This document shows, in pieces, positions 1,623 to 6,206 of a stretch of DNA of 11,454 nt (position 1 is its first letter; each line of letters opens with the position of its first letter). The notes beneath the pieces are model-generated. The model did no database searches and was not told the origin of the DNA. It saw nothing but the letters and a program-made list of their open reading frames with translations. Made by a program: the position numbers and the translations under genes. The DNA comes from Flavobacterium psychrophilum (GTDB taxonomy: Bacteria; Bacteroidota; Bacteroidia; Flavobacteriales; Flavobacteriaceae): contig CAMDQL010000054.1 of assembly GCA_945905915.1 (NCBI GenBank), forward strand, positions 1-11,454. The letters run 5' to 3'.

Positions 1623-3212
1623 TTATTTTAACTTAAATCGTTGAATTTTCCCTGTTTCAGTTTTTGGCAAACTTGTAACAAAGTTAATTACTCTTGGATA
1701 TTTATATGGCGCTGCTGTGTTTTTAAACCAATTTTGAATCTGAATTTTTAATGCCTCATCTGCCATTTCTTGTTCTTTTAAAACAATATGCGCACAAACC
1801 AACATCCCTCGTTCTTCATCGGGTAAACCCACAACTGCACATTCTAAAACAGCTTCATGTGTTAAAAGTACGGATTCTACTTCAATTGCGGCAATATTAT
1901 ATCCTGAAGAAATAATCATATCATCGCCACGAGCCACAAAATGAAAATACCCTTCTTCATCTTGTCGGAAAATATCACCTGTAATGTTCCAGCCATTTTC
2001 AACGTATTCGCGTTGTTTTTCTTCTCGATTCAAATATTTACAACCTGTAATTCCTCGAACCGCCAATCTTCCTGACTCATTTCTTGGTAATTCGTTGCCT
2101 TGTTGGTCAATAATTTTAGCTTCGTAACCCGTAATGGCTTTTCCAGTTGCGCCAGGTTTCATATTCTCTTCATTGGACGAAATAAAAATATGTAACATTT
2201 CGGTAGCACCAATGCCATCAATAATTTTTAACCCTGTGGCATCATACCAATCTTGCCAAACTTTTAATGGTAATGATTCTCCTGCCGAAACACATTTTCG
2301 TAAACTCGAAATATCGTAGTCTTGAATTTTTGTTGTAATCATTCGCCAAGCGGTTGGAGCTGTGAAACAAATCGTAATTTTATACTCTTGAATGGCTTGT
2401 AACAAAAAGTCTGGACTTGGTTTTTCTATTAAAAAAGTGGAAGCTCCAAAATACATCGGAAACAACACCAAACCACCTAAGCCAAAAGTAAAACCAATTG
2501 GTGGACTTCCAATAAATATATCATTTTCAGTAGGTTGTAAGGAATAATTTGGAAATGCTTCGCAAATATTGAGAATATCTTTATGATAATGTGCCGTCAT
2601 TTTTGGTAAACCTGTGGTACCTGAAGTAAACCCAATTAAAGCCACATCCTCAGATTTTGATGGATAATTGTCAAATATTTTATGCTTATTTTCTATTAAC
2701 TTTTCTAAATCGGAATTCCTGAAGAAACAAACGTGTTTTAGAAAATTCGATTGGACTAAATTCATTTCTTCGGCTAAATCGCTATCGCAAAAGGCGTGAG
2801 AAATTTCAGCACAATCAATTATAGTGGTTATTTCTTTAGCCCGCAATAAGGGCATAGTGGCTACGACAATTCCGCCTGCTTTTAAAACTGCAAACCAACA
2901 CGCAACCATCATTGGGTTATTTGCCGAACGCAACAAGACACGGTTTCCCGATTGTAAACCAAAATCTTCGACTAAAACATGTGCAATTTGATTGGCTTTT
3001 TCATATAAATCTTGATACGTCCAAGTTTCTTCAAAGGTTCGTAGGCAAATCGCATTTCCACGACCTTCTTTGATGTGAGAATCTAATAGTTTATCTACAC
3101 AATTCAATAGTTCAGGATTTTGGAATTGCGGTAAATCAGTAAAAACATAATTCGGCTGCAAGTCTAAACTTGGTAGGTTTATGTGTGCAAAATTATCTTC
3201 GTAGTATTTCAT
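1623..3212 (-). CDS. Aryl acid-CoA ligase (benzoate / 2-aminobenzoate-CoA ligase type)
   Basis: This 529-residue member of the ANL (adenylate-forming) superfamily would activate an aromatic acid with ATP and CoA. Visible motifs in order are the phosphate loop FTSGTTGLPK (195-204), GATEM (335-339), the TGD motif (411-413), the hinge-region segment RGDDMIISSGYNI (428-440), and the C-terminal catalytic lysine in PKTETGKIQRF (K522). Length and the SGYNIAAIEVE block fit the benzoate-CoA ligase group, which includes 2-aminobenzoate-CoA ligase. The neighbouring monooxygenase/reductase fusion acts on 2-aminobenzoyl-CoA or salicylyl-CoA in characterised systems, so anthranilate or salicylate is the likely substrate. 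That specificity is inferred from context. The start ATG is at 3210-3212, 80 nt downstream of the fusion gene, with a large hairpin in between. Confidence 0.88.
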   Translation of the reverse strand: MKYYEDNFAHINLPSLDLQPNYVFTDLPQFQNPELLNCVDKLLDSHIKEGRGNAICLRTFEETWTYQDLYEKANQIAHVLVEDFGLQSGNRVLLRSANNPMMVACWFAVLKAGGIVVATMPLLRAKEITTIIDCAEISHAFCDSDLAEEMNLVQSNFLKHVCFFRNSDLEKLIENKHKIFDNYPSKSEDVALIGFTSGTTGLPKMTAHYHKDILNICEAFPNYSLQPTENDIFIGSPPIGFTFGLGGLVLFPMYFGASTFLIEKPSPDFLLQAIQEYKITICFTAPTAWRMITTKIQDYDISSLRKCVSAGESLPLKVWQDWYDATGLKIIDGIGATEMLHIFISSNEENMKPGATGKAITGYEAKIIDQQGNELPRNESGRLAVRGITGCKYLNREEKQREYVENGWNITGDIFRQDEEGYFHFVARGDDMIISSGYNIAAIEVESVLLTHEAVLECAVVGLPDEERGMLVCAHIVLKEQEMADEALKIQIQNWFKNTAAPYKYPRVINFVTSLPKTETGKIQRFKLK

Positions 3213-3230
3213 TTGAAAAAATTGTATATA

Positions 3231-3287
3231 GTATATTGTATAATTGTATATTGATTCAATTTTACAATATACAATTATACATTATAC
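3231..3287. repeat. Long AT-rich hairpin between monooxygenase/reductase and ligase genes
   Basis: Arms at 3231-3253 and 3265-3287 are complementary at 22 of 23 positions, with an 11-nt loop. Both arms are built from repeats of TATTGTATAAT-like units. The hairpin starts 5 nt after the stop codon of the upstream gene and ends 18 nt before the ligase start. A run of six T follows about ten nucleotides after the stem in the direction of transcription. It could act as a partial terminator or 3'-end stabiliser that sets relative expression within the operon, or be a dispersed palindromic repeat. Function is not shown by sequence. Confidence 0.8.
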
Positions 3288-3292
3288 AGTTT

Positions 3293-5584
3293 TTACTTCT
3301 TATTGCTCTTCGGTTTCAATGCTTTTTTCATACCTTCTGCTTGTTTTCTTTCAGCAGCTTTTAAGGGATACAAATGGGAAATACCCATTTTATATGAATT
3401 TGGAATATCTGTTGCGCGAAATTGTTCGTACGCTTGCGCATTTCTTACAAAATTAGCATCTAATAATAAAGGTCTTCCAAGTGCTACTAAATCGGCTCTT
3501 CCATTAAGAATTATGGTGTTAATTTGGTCAATATCTTGAATATATCCAGCAGTTATTGTTGGAATATGAACCGTATTTCGTACTGTATCTGAAAAAGGCG
3601 TTTGCCACATTCTTCCTGTTTGTGGTTTTTGGTCAGCAACTGTATTTCCTGTGGAAACATTGAGGATATCCGCACCCGCTTTTTTAAACGCTTCTGAAAT
3701 AAACAAAACATCTTGTTCTGAAATTCCGTTTTCTGCCCAATCGGTAGCGGATATTCTTACAGAAATTGGCTTTTCTTTTGGAAATACTTCACGAATAGCT
3801 ATAAAAACTTCTAATGGGTATTTTAATCGATTTTGAACACTCCCACCAAATTCATCGTTACGAATATTAGTCAATGGAGATAAGAAAGACGCCAATAAAA
3901 ATCCGTGATGTGCTTGTAATTCAATCATATCAAAACCAGCTTCATTAGCATTTTTTGTGGCTTGCACAAATTGATTTTTAACCAATTTCACATCTTCCAA
4001 AGTCATTTCTTTTGGACAATCAGAATTTTCATTAAACGGAATAGCAGAAGCTGAAAGCAATTCCCATTTATTTCCCTGAAATTGGTCTTCCCAAGGAATT
4101 TTCGAACAGCCTTTTCTTCCTGAATGTCCCAATTGAATTCCGATTTTGGTTTGGGTATATTTGTGAATGAAATCAGTAATTCGTTTCCAAGCGTTTAATT
4201 GATTTTCGTTATAAATACCTGCGCATCCTTCAGTAATTCTTCCATCATCTGAAACTGCGGTCATTTCGGTCAAAATTAATCCTAAACCACCAACGGCTCT
4301 TGACGTATAATGCTGAAAATGCCAATCATTTACCACACCGTTTTCGGACACATATTGCCCCATAGCGGACATTACGATACGGTTTTTCAATTCTAAATTT
4401 CTTAATTTAAAAGTCGTAAAGGCAGGAGATTCTGAAACAAGTTCAGAATAACAATTATCGGTAAATTCATTTAAAACTTTATCTGTAAATGAACTATCTC
4501 TTAAACGTAAGTTTTCATATGTTACTTTTTTGGAACGCGTCATGCAGCCAAAAGCAAATTGCTGAAATGTATGTTGCATATGACGATCCATATTTTCAAA
4601 CCAATCTAATGAAACTATAGCGGCATACTGAATCATTTCAACCGTATTTCTTCGGGTTTTATCGTACTGTGCAAAAGCGGCATGTACATCATTTGGATGA
4701 GCAATAACGGCATCGGATAAGCCAATAGCGCTATCCATCGCTAATTTTGTCCCTGAACCAATAGAATAATGGGCAGTAGCTTTGGCATCACCTAATAAAA
4801 CAATGTTATTATGGTACCAATTTTCATTCGTTACATGCGGAAACTGACGCCAATGTGATTTATTTGAAATTAAGGGATGACCGTCTAATTCTTCTGCGAA
4901 TATTTCGGCAATTTTTGCCATCGTATCTGCTTCATTGGTGACTTCAAAACCATGTTTTTGCCAAGTTTCATCGCTACATTCAAAAATCCAAGTGCTCATA
5001 CCTTCTTCGTATTGATACGAATGTGCTACGATGGTTCCGTGAGGCGTACTTCTGAAAAAATAAGTAAAAGCATCTAACGGTTTTGTGGAACCTAACCAAA
5101 CAAAACGGTTTTTCTTTAACTCGATTTTTGTGCCAAATTCCTTTTGATATTTTGTGCGAATTGCACTTCCAATTCCGTCTGTTGCCAGAATAATATCGGA
5201 ATCTGCAAATTGTGATAAATCATCTACGTTTTGTTCGAAATGCAAGTTTACACCTTCTTCCACACAACGTTGTTGCAATAATTGCAAAAGGGTTTTTCTG
5301 GAACAACCGCAAAAACCATTTCCTGCAATAGTTACGAATTCACCATCTCTCGCAATAATAATATCATCCCAATAGGCAAATTTACTTCTAATTAATTCAT
5401 ACGATTTCATATCGCGTTTTAGAAATTCGCCCAAGGTTTCATCTGAAAACACAACTCCGAATCCAAAACTATCATCGGGCTTATTGCGTTCGTAAATATC
5501 GATTTGGCAATGCGGCATTGCTTTCTTGGTTAATATCGAAAAGTAAAGTCCGCCTGGACCACCACCTATAACTGTTATTTTCAT
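3293..5584 (-). CDS. Bifunctional FAD monooxygenase / Old Yellow Enzyme reductase (2-aminobenzoyl-CoA or salicylyl-CoA type)
   Basis: This 763-residue protein is a fusion of two flavoenzymes. The N-terminal part (about 1-375) is a PHBH-like FAD monooxygenase: GGGPGG at 7-12 with acidic E32 closing the dinucleotide fold, ATDGIGS around D136, and the LLGDAKATAHYSIGSGTK motif around G265-D266. The C-terminal part (about 388-763) is an Old Yellow Enzyme barrel: NRIVMSAMGQY (401-411), ELQAHHGFLLASFLSP (from about 555), GGS.NR and a final LGRPLLLD phosphate-binding region. This order and length match 2-aminobenzoyl-CoA monooxygenase/reductase described from Azoarcus evansii, and the homologues called salicylyl-CoA 5-hydroxylase/oxidoreductase. 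Expected cofactors are FAD, FMN and NAD(P)H. The usual first His of the OYE substrate pair is Gln (Q557). The inter-domain linker contains a repeat-derived segment (residues 378-387). The gene is 19 nt downstream of the flavin reductase-like gene. Confidence 0.9.
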   Translation of the reverse strand: MKITVIGGGPGGLYFSILTKKAMPHCQIDIYERNKPDDSFGFGVVFSDETLGEFLKRDMKSYELIRSKFAYWDDIIIARDGEFVTIAGNGFCGCSRKTLLQLLQQRCVEEGVNLHFEQNVDDLSQFADSDIILATDGIGSAIRTKYQKEFGTKIELKKNRFVWLGSTKPLDAFTYFFRSTPHGTIVAHSYQYEEGMSTWIFECSDETWQKHGFEVTNEADTMAKIAEIFAEELDGHPLISNKSHWRQFPHVTNENWYHNNIVLLGDAKATAHYSIGSGTKLAMDSAIGLSDAVIAHPNDVHAAFAQYDKTRRNTVEMIQYAAIVSLDWFENMDRHMQHTFQQFAFGCMTRSKKVTYENLRLRDSSFTDKVLNEFTDNCYSELVSESPAFTTFKLRNLELKNRIVMSAMGQYVSENGVVNDWHFQHYTSRAVGGLGLILTEMTAVSDDGRITEGCAGIYNENQLNAWKRITDFIHKYTQTKIGIQLGHSGRKGCSKIPWEDQFQGNKWELLSASAIPFNENSDCPKEMTLEDVKLVKNQFVQATKNANEAGFDMIELQAHHGFLLASFLSPLTNIRNDEFGGSVQNRLKYPLEVFIAIREVFPKEKPISVRISATDWAENGISEQDVLFISEAFKKAGADILNVSTGNTVADQKPQTGRMWQTPFSDTVRNTVHIPTITAGYIQDIDQINTIILNGRADLVALGRPLLLDANFVRNAQAYEQFRATDIPNSYKMGISHLYPLKAAERKQAEGMKKALKPKSNKK
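4425..4453. repeat. Dispersed palindromic repeat inserted in frame in a domain linker
   Basis: Perfect 8-bp arms ATTCTGAA (4429-4436) and TTCAGAAT (4442-4449) flank a 5-nt spacer. Read on the gene strand the element encodes CYSELVSESP, residues 378-387 of the monooxygenase/reductase fusion. I recognise this as very close to a widespread flavobacterial intergenic repeat whose chance translation is CHSELVSES. It sits exactly between the monooxygenase domain and the start of the Old Yellow Enzyme domain (AFTTFKLRNL) and keeps the frame open. Only one copy lies in this window, so the repeat identity depends on prior knowledge. Confidence 0.65.
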
Positions 5585-5603: not shown

Positions 5604-6206
5604 TTATCTTTTAATAGAGAATATTTCTCCTAATTTACTGTAATTGGAACCTGCTAATCGTGCGACAGGTTTGTATTTTTCTAAATCTATTCTATGATTT
5701 TCCATCAAAATTGAATCGTCAATATGCATCGTAATAATTTTTCCAATGATAATACACGCGCCACCGTTTTGATGCTTTTCGATAAAATAATGATGTACCA
5801 TTTCGCATTCAAATTGCACCAAGCTTTCTTTTACTCGTTTTGGTTTGATGTAAATGGATTCTATTGGAGTTACGTTTGCTAATTCAAATTCATTGACATC
5901 AGCTGCTACAGATTGAGAAGTAGTATTCATTTGTTCTACAACATCTTCGGTAACTAAATTGACTACAAATTGCTGATTGGCGAGAATATTATTTAATGTG
6001 TCTTTATTTTTATTACCCGTTCGAACCGTTGAAAACATAATATGAGGCGGGTCTTCGCTAACTACATTAAAAAACGAAAACGGAGCTAAATTATCAATTC
6101 CATTTTCATCGATAGTGGCTACCCAAGCGATAGGTCTTGGAATGACAGTTCCTGTCAATAATTTATATAAAGCCGAAGATTCGGTGTTTTGAATGTCGAA
6201 TTGCAT
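5604..6206 (-). CDS. Flavin reductase-like / FMN-binding split-barrel protein
   Basis: This 200-residue protein belongs to the DIM6/NTAB flavin reductase-like family. Features are the N-terminal TGTVIPRPIAWVAT segment (19-32), the APFSFFNVVSEDPPHIMFST flavin-binding region (41-60), and a closing block KPVARLAGSNYSKLGEIF. Members bind FMN and either reduce flavin with NAD(P)H for a partner oxygenase or carry out their own flavin-dependent chemistry. It is the first gene of the aromatic-acid operon and precedes the monooxygenase/reductase by 19 nt. The fusion enzyme carries its own FAD and is expected to use NAD(P)H directly, so a flavin-supply role is not required. The real task of this protein is open. 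The start at 6206 is supported by the typical FDIQNTESSALYKLLTG beginning. Confidence 0.85.
   Translation of the reverse strand: MQFDIQNTESSALYKLLTGTVIPRPIAWVATIDENGIDNLAPFSFFNVVSEDPPHIMFSTVRTGNKNKDTLNNILANQQFVVNLVTEDVVEQMNTTSQSVAADVNEFELANVTPIESIYIKPKRVKESLVQFECEMVHHYFIEKHQNGGACIIIGKIITMHIDDSILMENHRIDLEKYKPVARLAGSNYSKLGEIFSIKR

Follow-up and report, generated by a model that had tools for sequence, protein, structure and literature searches.

The window, by which we mean the whole stretch of 11,454 nucleotides of Flavobacterium psychrophilum DNA that was analysed (GCA_945905915.1, contig CAMDQL010000054.1), carries five genes on the same strand between positions 147 and 6206, coding for a nitrilase-like protein, a thioesterase, an aryl-CoA ligase, a fused flavoenzyme and a flavin reductase. 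Judged from sequence, this gene set looks like an operon for aryl-CoA (anthranilate or salicylate) degradation. The features relevant to this work are as follows:

1623..3212, minus strand: CoA ligase (benzoate-CoA ligase-like, below cut-off), downstream of the host gene; from profile matches.
3293..5584, minus strand: host gene, 763 aa, a fusion of a VioD-like FAD monooxygenase with an Old Yellow Enzyme; from the ORF and profile and structure matches.
4427..4454, minus strand: whole repeat element, with a TTGTT tag, 8-bp stem, 5-nt loop and CT tail; from comparing the sequence with a consensus built on 93 distinct copies.
4429..4449, minus strand: palindrome, loop at 4437-4441; from an inverted-repeat call and a core match.
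5604..6206, minus strand: flavin reductase-like protein, upstream, 19 bp from the host gene; from the ORF list and profile matches.

The best NCBIfam model for the host gene is the bifunctional salicylyl-CoA 5-hydroxylase/oxidoreductase (979.8 bits, under the cut-off of 1078), and many relatives of the protein are named anthraniloyl-CoA monooxygenase by their sources. The downstream CoA ligase (1623..3212) probably acts in the same pathway. VioD chains match the monooxygenase half up to residue 337-350, and in the solved relatives listed the Old Yellow Enzyme half starts between residues 376 and 393 (both numbered without the methionine, true positions being one higher). These domain limits bear out the proposal that a repeat-derived peptide sits at the joint between the two enzymes. 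In an AlphaFold2 model of the protein (mean pLDDT 75.6) a helix ends at residue 377 and is followed by coil at 378-386, in true numbering, and two 10-residue blocks have mean pLDDT values of 75 and 73. The alignments, the structure search and this model were all based on 3293-5581, which lacks the initial methionine.

The original prediction described a perfect 8-bp palindrome with a 5-nt spacer, encoding CYSELVSESP, and this was confirmed. The arms ATTCTGAA (4429-4436) and TTCAGAAT (4442-4449) are 100% complementary with 5 nt between them, and the stretch encodes residues 378-387 of the 763-aa minus-strand ORF at 3293-5584. The interval first given for the repeat, 4425-4453, covers all of the element at 4427-4454 except the first T of the tag. 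With up to three mismatches allowed, the 19-nt core had one match in the window, against an average of 0.01 over 200 shuffles. This copy stands alone, i.e. is not part of a dimer, and its tag differs from the consensus TTGTC by one C-to-T change.

Copies of the repeat, here called ELVS, were counted in the genomes of relatives. The core CTGAACTTGTTTCAG was found in 42 of 49 relatives' genomes with up to 58 copies (the reversed control gave 0; the count covers the loci other than L038). Within the family group, 48 of 149 genomes had the exact form with its tag, again with 0 for the reversed control. The earlier statement that the element is common in flavobacteria therefore holds for these relatives. 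For 93 distinct copies from fetched loci, with two genomes contributing many of them, the consensus is TTGTCA-NN-CTGAACTTGTTTCAG-N'N'-TCT. The tag letters were conserved in 87 (T), 84 (G), 91 (T) and 84 (C) copies, and the tail reads CT (C in 92 and T in 89). The first pair of the 8-bp stem is A-T in 86 copies and the second is T-A or A-T in 86, while the inner five pairs, and the 5-nt loop in copies outside the window, were fixed by the search pattern. The outer free stem positions were complementary in 88 and 89 of the 93 copies, against 40.4 and 49.6 expected for independent letters. Among 76 copies from two genomes we found 12 close inverted pairs, with the tags outside and starts 29-45 bp apart (e.g. 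L127, L139, L144, L175), and one case (L136) where two copies 91 bp apart point the same way; many of the 76 lie shortly past the stop of a predicted ORF. The core inference of a dispersed palindromic repeat in frame at a tolerant inter-domain joint is thus supported by its dispersal in relatives and by the coil in the model. In contrast to the dispersed pattern elsewhere, genome G195 (that of L024) has ELVS cores in two arrays, one of 13 copies spaced 105-142 bp (contig C2, 461105-462657) and one of 9 copies spaced 69-139 bp (contig C4, 211443-212129).

By its sequence features, the window element is a copy of a dispersed element that fits the TGTC-tagged branch of the CGTC-superfamily REPs. 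Di Nocera et al. 2013 (PMC3733652) reported the TGTC tag for many members of this superfamily and listed Bacteroidetes and G. forsetii among its carriers; they found no dedicated transposase and left open how such REPs spread without one. Like them, the flavobacterial element has a terminal unpaired tag of the CGTC/TGTC type (TGTC in the consensus, TGTT in the window copy), a stem of 8 bp (8-9 bp in the superfamily) with A-T pairs in the first and second position, a 5-nt loop in the window (4-5 nt in the superfamily), compensated stem variants and intragenic members. Head-to-head dimers predominate (the 12 close pairs against the single same-direction case), and there was no association with transposase genes of the Y1 class, as none of 14 Y1 loci had an ELVS copy. 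Unlike them, it has a CT tail instead of the usual unpaired CCA, which is no defining failure because CCA fits most, not all, CGTC REPs (PMC3733652).

The element is also like Rickettsia RPE-4 and RPE-6, being a short palindromic repeat that lies in frame within conserved coding genes. Since its host is not Rickettsia, and belongs to another phylum, we do not file it as an RPE, and the sharing of one slot by several kinds is not described for RPE in the available text of PMC3733652. Both RPE-4 and RPE-6 were assigned to the CGTC superfamily there, and the comparison with Rickettsia palindromic elements made at the outset is in this sense supported. GTAG REPs with RAYT are similar in that they are short tagged hairpins occurring in pairs and often just downstream of genes; assignment to this class was rejected, as the tag is TGTC rather than GTAG and no ELVS-flanked RAYT-type (Y1) transposase gene was seen in 12 genomes. 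As for a target-site duplication of the transposon or MITE type, the differences in slot length point to partial or full replacement and away from clean insertion, and the relatives are too diverged for such a comparison.

In the 120 closest listed proteins (92-98% identity) the linker reads xELVxxx in 46, xNxKNQS in 45 and as an LPEALEG dimer in 29. Proteins of the first two types are mostly of equal length, and therefore the repeat replaced linker sequence. Likewise, in the nearest repeat-free homologues, L002 and L003, the linker has the same length and an unrelated sequence. Of the idea that a repeat was inserted at a tolerant joint, the dispersed repeat in frame at that place stood, whereas a simple lineage-specific insertion of residues 378-387 did not survive the alignment with these two homologues. 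In other clades the repeat-bearing slot was longer than that of repeat-free relatives, by 9, 30 and 42 bases in the cases seen. SELVSES was not encountered in homologues unrelated to the repeat, and other species have unrelated peptides in the slot.

The homologue set consisted of 80 loci and the window (81 in all), of which 78 had a readable linker; L019, L021 and L075 were unread by the linker pattern, although a comparison of slot lengths showed EALEG dimers in L019 and L021, outside the count of 78. With kinds assigned by eye from DNA and peptide, 20 linkers contained a palindromic repeat of one of five kinds (ELVS 6, TELVEV 6, SERSE 1, EALEG dimer 4, GAGCG 3), 15 a heptamer array of one of two kinds (QPTT 9, NSQLP 6) and 43 neither. 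On a 78-tip tree built without the linker, its type changes at least 27 times, or 20 times after collapsing nodes with less than 90% support, and the presence of a palindrome changes 15 times, or 9 with the same nodes collapsed. The repeat in the linker is thus no one-off: in many species the slot holds different repeat kinds, and two other genes behave alike. That the same joint is built from several genomic repeat kinds in related species means that repeats keep supplying protein linkers. Four loci of the set (L001, L051, L053 and L078) have record titles of Chryseobacterium, Rhizobium, Bifidobacterium or Sphingobacterium. Since their gene clusters with homologues from Flavobacterium, these MAG labels look wrong.

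The kind found in the slot matches what is amplified in the genome for five of the six kinds tested, SERSE, with its single linker, being outside the test. Genomes with an ELVS linker had a median of 29 other copies, against 3.5 in non-carriers (one-sided Mann-Whitney p 0.0017). The corresponding medians were 17 against 3 for TELVEV (p 0.0023), 10 against 0 for EALEG (p 1.8e-5), 22 against 4 for GAGCG (p 0.046) and 6 against 0 for the heptamer QPTT (p 1.7e-5), heptamer counts being positions in arrays rather than separate places. These values treat related carriers as independent and so overstate independence; permuting the labels of kinds among the 26 carriers gave p 5e-5. The widespread repeat-free linker NVNxKNQS served as a negative control, and no excess of copies was found in the genomes that carry it. 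The idea that NVNxKNQS is itself another dispersed repeat was rejected on the same result, although the search pattern recognised the carrier's own linker in no more than 5 of 12 cases.

A total of 76 ELVS copies (30 of 30 in genome G001 and 46 of 58 in G010) were compared with ORFs of at least 80 aa. Thirteen lie in ORFs, of 221-1064 aa, and are read as SELVSE (7) or as LKQVQ (6), the two hydrophilic frames; the third open frame, which is hydrophobic, was read in none. Ten are in proteins with a Pfam match, namely a Kdo transferase, a transketolase/E1-type enzyme, RmlD, a radical-SAM protein (two orthologues), a class I tRNA synthetase (a dimer with both units translated), HsdM, an alanine-racemase-like protein and a family 2 glycosyltransferase. 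A further two occur in proteins orthologous to Pfam-matched ones (L143 to that of the window's gene, L168 to the Kdo transferase L125), and one (L135) is in a protein without a Pfam match. Several copies (L130, L134, L145, L153, L159) fall inside Pfam domain spans, and therefore tolerant sites are not only inter-domain joints. At L145, the tRNA synthetase from a F. aquatile genome, a head-to-head REP dimer is read whole (CHSELVSESQDQNLKQVQVDK).

In the Kdo transferase and the radical-SAM gene we observed turnover at one site, similar to that in the linker. The Kdo transferase had a match in 43 of 44 genomes, and 39 of the 43 genes could be read; its loop contains the ELVS element in 7 (6 perfect and 1 decayed) and another palindrome or neither in the rest. 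The second palindrome, GTnnAGAC...GTC, had stems of at least 7 bp in 7 orthologues. Members of this family (L192-L196, L199 and L215) have an inner stem that is varied but complementary, up to 12 bp, and are translated in frame. The radical-SAM gene had a match in 42 of 44 genomes, and in the 41 sequences that were read, 19 have one of five recognised kinds and 22 have no recognised kind; one of the latter (L237) was missed by the family patterns and is TELVEV by its peptide. In L269, the radical-SAM gene of the L007 genome, one REP type has expanded into five CQTELV units, each about 21 bp long, which lie in tandem and in frame.

Together, these findings make it probable, in our opinion, that a REP of the CGTC superfamily with a TGTC tag has become fixed, in frame, at the flexible joint of this two-domain flavoenzyme, by passive, selection-filtered capture at tolerant sites. 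Of the element's two open hydrophilic frames one is read here, and the joint of related species is built from many unrelated repeat kinds. REPs would spread through the genome by some process, and copies in coding DNA would survive only at exposed, length-tolerant sites and in frame, where the repeat peptide may act as a passive spacer. Such a site would keep being overwritten by whichever repeat currently amplifies. Speaking against this reading, several families start at the same base, which is unexpected under random insertion and tolerance alone, and NSQLP linkers do not significantly track genome copies (p 0.21).

The first of these was seen in two genes. Counted from the DDGELP anchor of the radical-SAM gene, the TTTGTCA tag starts at offset 40 in 9 carriers, which belong to four kinds (ELVS 2, TELVEV 3, SERSR 2, SDEGG 2), and at offset 36 in all 7 TSSEVEM carriers, the exceptions being two ELVS carriers at offset 37 and one with a decayed tag. 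For the linker, 7 carriers (three kinds) have the stem-loop core at offset 37 and 6 carriers (two kinds) have it at offset 43, and all 13 TGTC-type carriers share orientation and frame; the core offsets are 40, 40 and 33 for GAGCG and 39, 39, 39 and 30 for EALEG. Shared positions are not predicted by random insertion and tolerance, and would be predicted by in-place switching or by strongly sequence-preferring insertion. It is possible, at somewhat less than an even chance, that the linker, the Kdo transferase and the radical-SAM gene contain fixed coding "REP sockets" of flavobacteria, in which unrelated families are exchanged in place, often at the same tag base and frame, with the linker continually rewritten to the currently dominant family. 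Just as tentatively, a coding site once seeded by a REP may keep the position of the tag while the stem-loop is swapped through ectopic gene conversion, template switching or tag-directed replacement. Consistent with such switching, the Kdo-transferase orthologues have arms that differ while pairing stays perfect, and L001 shows equal-length replacement against its nearest repeat-free relatives (L002, L008). However, the relatedness of the carriers ties their offsets together, more than one register occurs, and in other clades repeat-bearing slots are longer than repeat-free ones. Elements inserting independently at a preferred sequence would likewise keep the register constant, and no donor tract was identified. 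The exceptions to the register speak for at least several separate arrivals.

It was also considered that interspecies homologous recombination moves whole linker variants, in which case few original captures would be needed. The patchy distribution of types on the tree would agree with this, but the kind in the slot follows its own genome's repeat load for five of the six kinds tested, and carriers of the same kind have different residues beside the repeat, making this explanation unlikely. Mobilisation by a RAYT-type (Y1/HUH) transposase, as for GTAG REPs, appears less likely still. The hairpin, tag and dimers are REP-like, and 7 of the 12 genomes searched have Y1 transposase matches. Nevertheless, ELVS, TELVEV and EALEG were all absent from the 14 transposase loci, each taken with about 1.5 kb of flank except for two truncated at a contig end; one had a SERSE-like match. 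Among the 5 genomes without a Y1 match one has 38 ELVS cores and another 28 TELVEV cores. CGTC REPs are without a transposase in the literature as well, as far as the available text goes (PMC3733652), and RAYT mobilisation was rejected since no REP-flanked Y1 transposase with these three families was seen in the 12 genomes.

A role of the hairpin in the mRNA, such as slowing of the ribosome between the two domains, would suit its location at a domain boundary, and the 51-nt stretch around the window hairpin does fold better than most dinucleotide shuffles (-6.4 kcal/mol, z -2.24, with 6 of 200 shuffles as good). Against letter shuffles, however, z fell below -2 in only 4 of 78 linkers, all of them EALEG dimers, the window linker scored -0.5, and the median for QPTT linkers was -0.1 kcal/mol. 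Across the 78 linkers hairpins are thus not conserved, and this role was rejected as very improbable. Selection of the peptide as a protein motif, with the palindrome incidental, would agree with the presence of CHSELVSESP in 20 of the 120 closest listed proteins. It is nevertheless hardly credible, since the slot has unrelated peptides in other species and copies of the element are scattered over ORFs and intergenic DNA and read in two frames.

Intragenic REPs are already known, including those in recB of two Xanthomonas species, the one case in which different REPs were reported at about one site (PMC3733652, available text). In flavobacteria, unlike recB, several kinds occur per slot, in many species and in three genes. 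We found no prior description in the open-licence literature of flavobacterial in-frame REPs or of slots shared by several families across species or genes; RepRanger (PMC12306157) counted REPs in two Flavobacterium species, and the words "intragenic" and "in-frame" are absent from its main text as available. Orthologous coding slots with different families and alignable flanks represent before-and-after pairs from which the replacement process can be read. The findings also show that non-coding repeats steadily supply proteins, the Kdo transferase among them, with segments, and this explains odd linker peptides such as CHSELVSES, CHTELVEV and LKQVQND, which could otherwise be mistaken for conserved motifs.

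The window also contains intergenic 7-bp tandem arrays at 76-106, 3221-3253 and 3257-3288 (AGTCTAA; ATTGTAT and its rough complement). These arrays pair inversely with neighbouring sequence and resemble the heptamer arrays that are translated in the linkers of some relatives.
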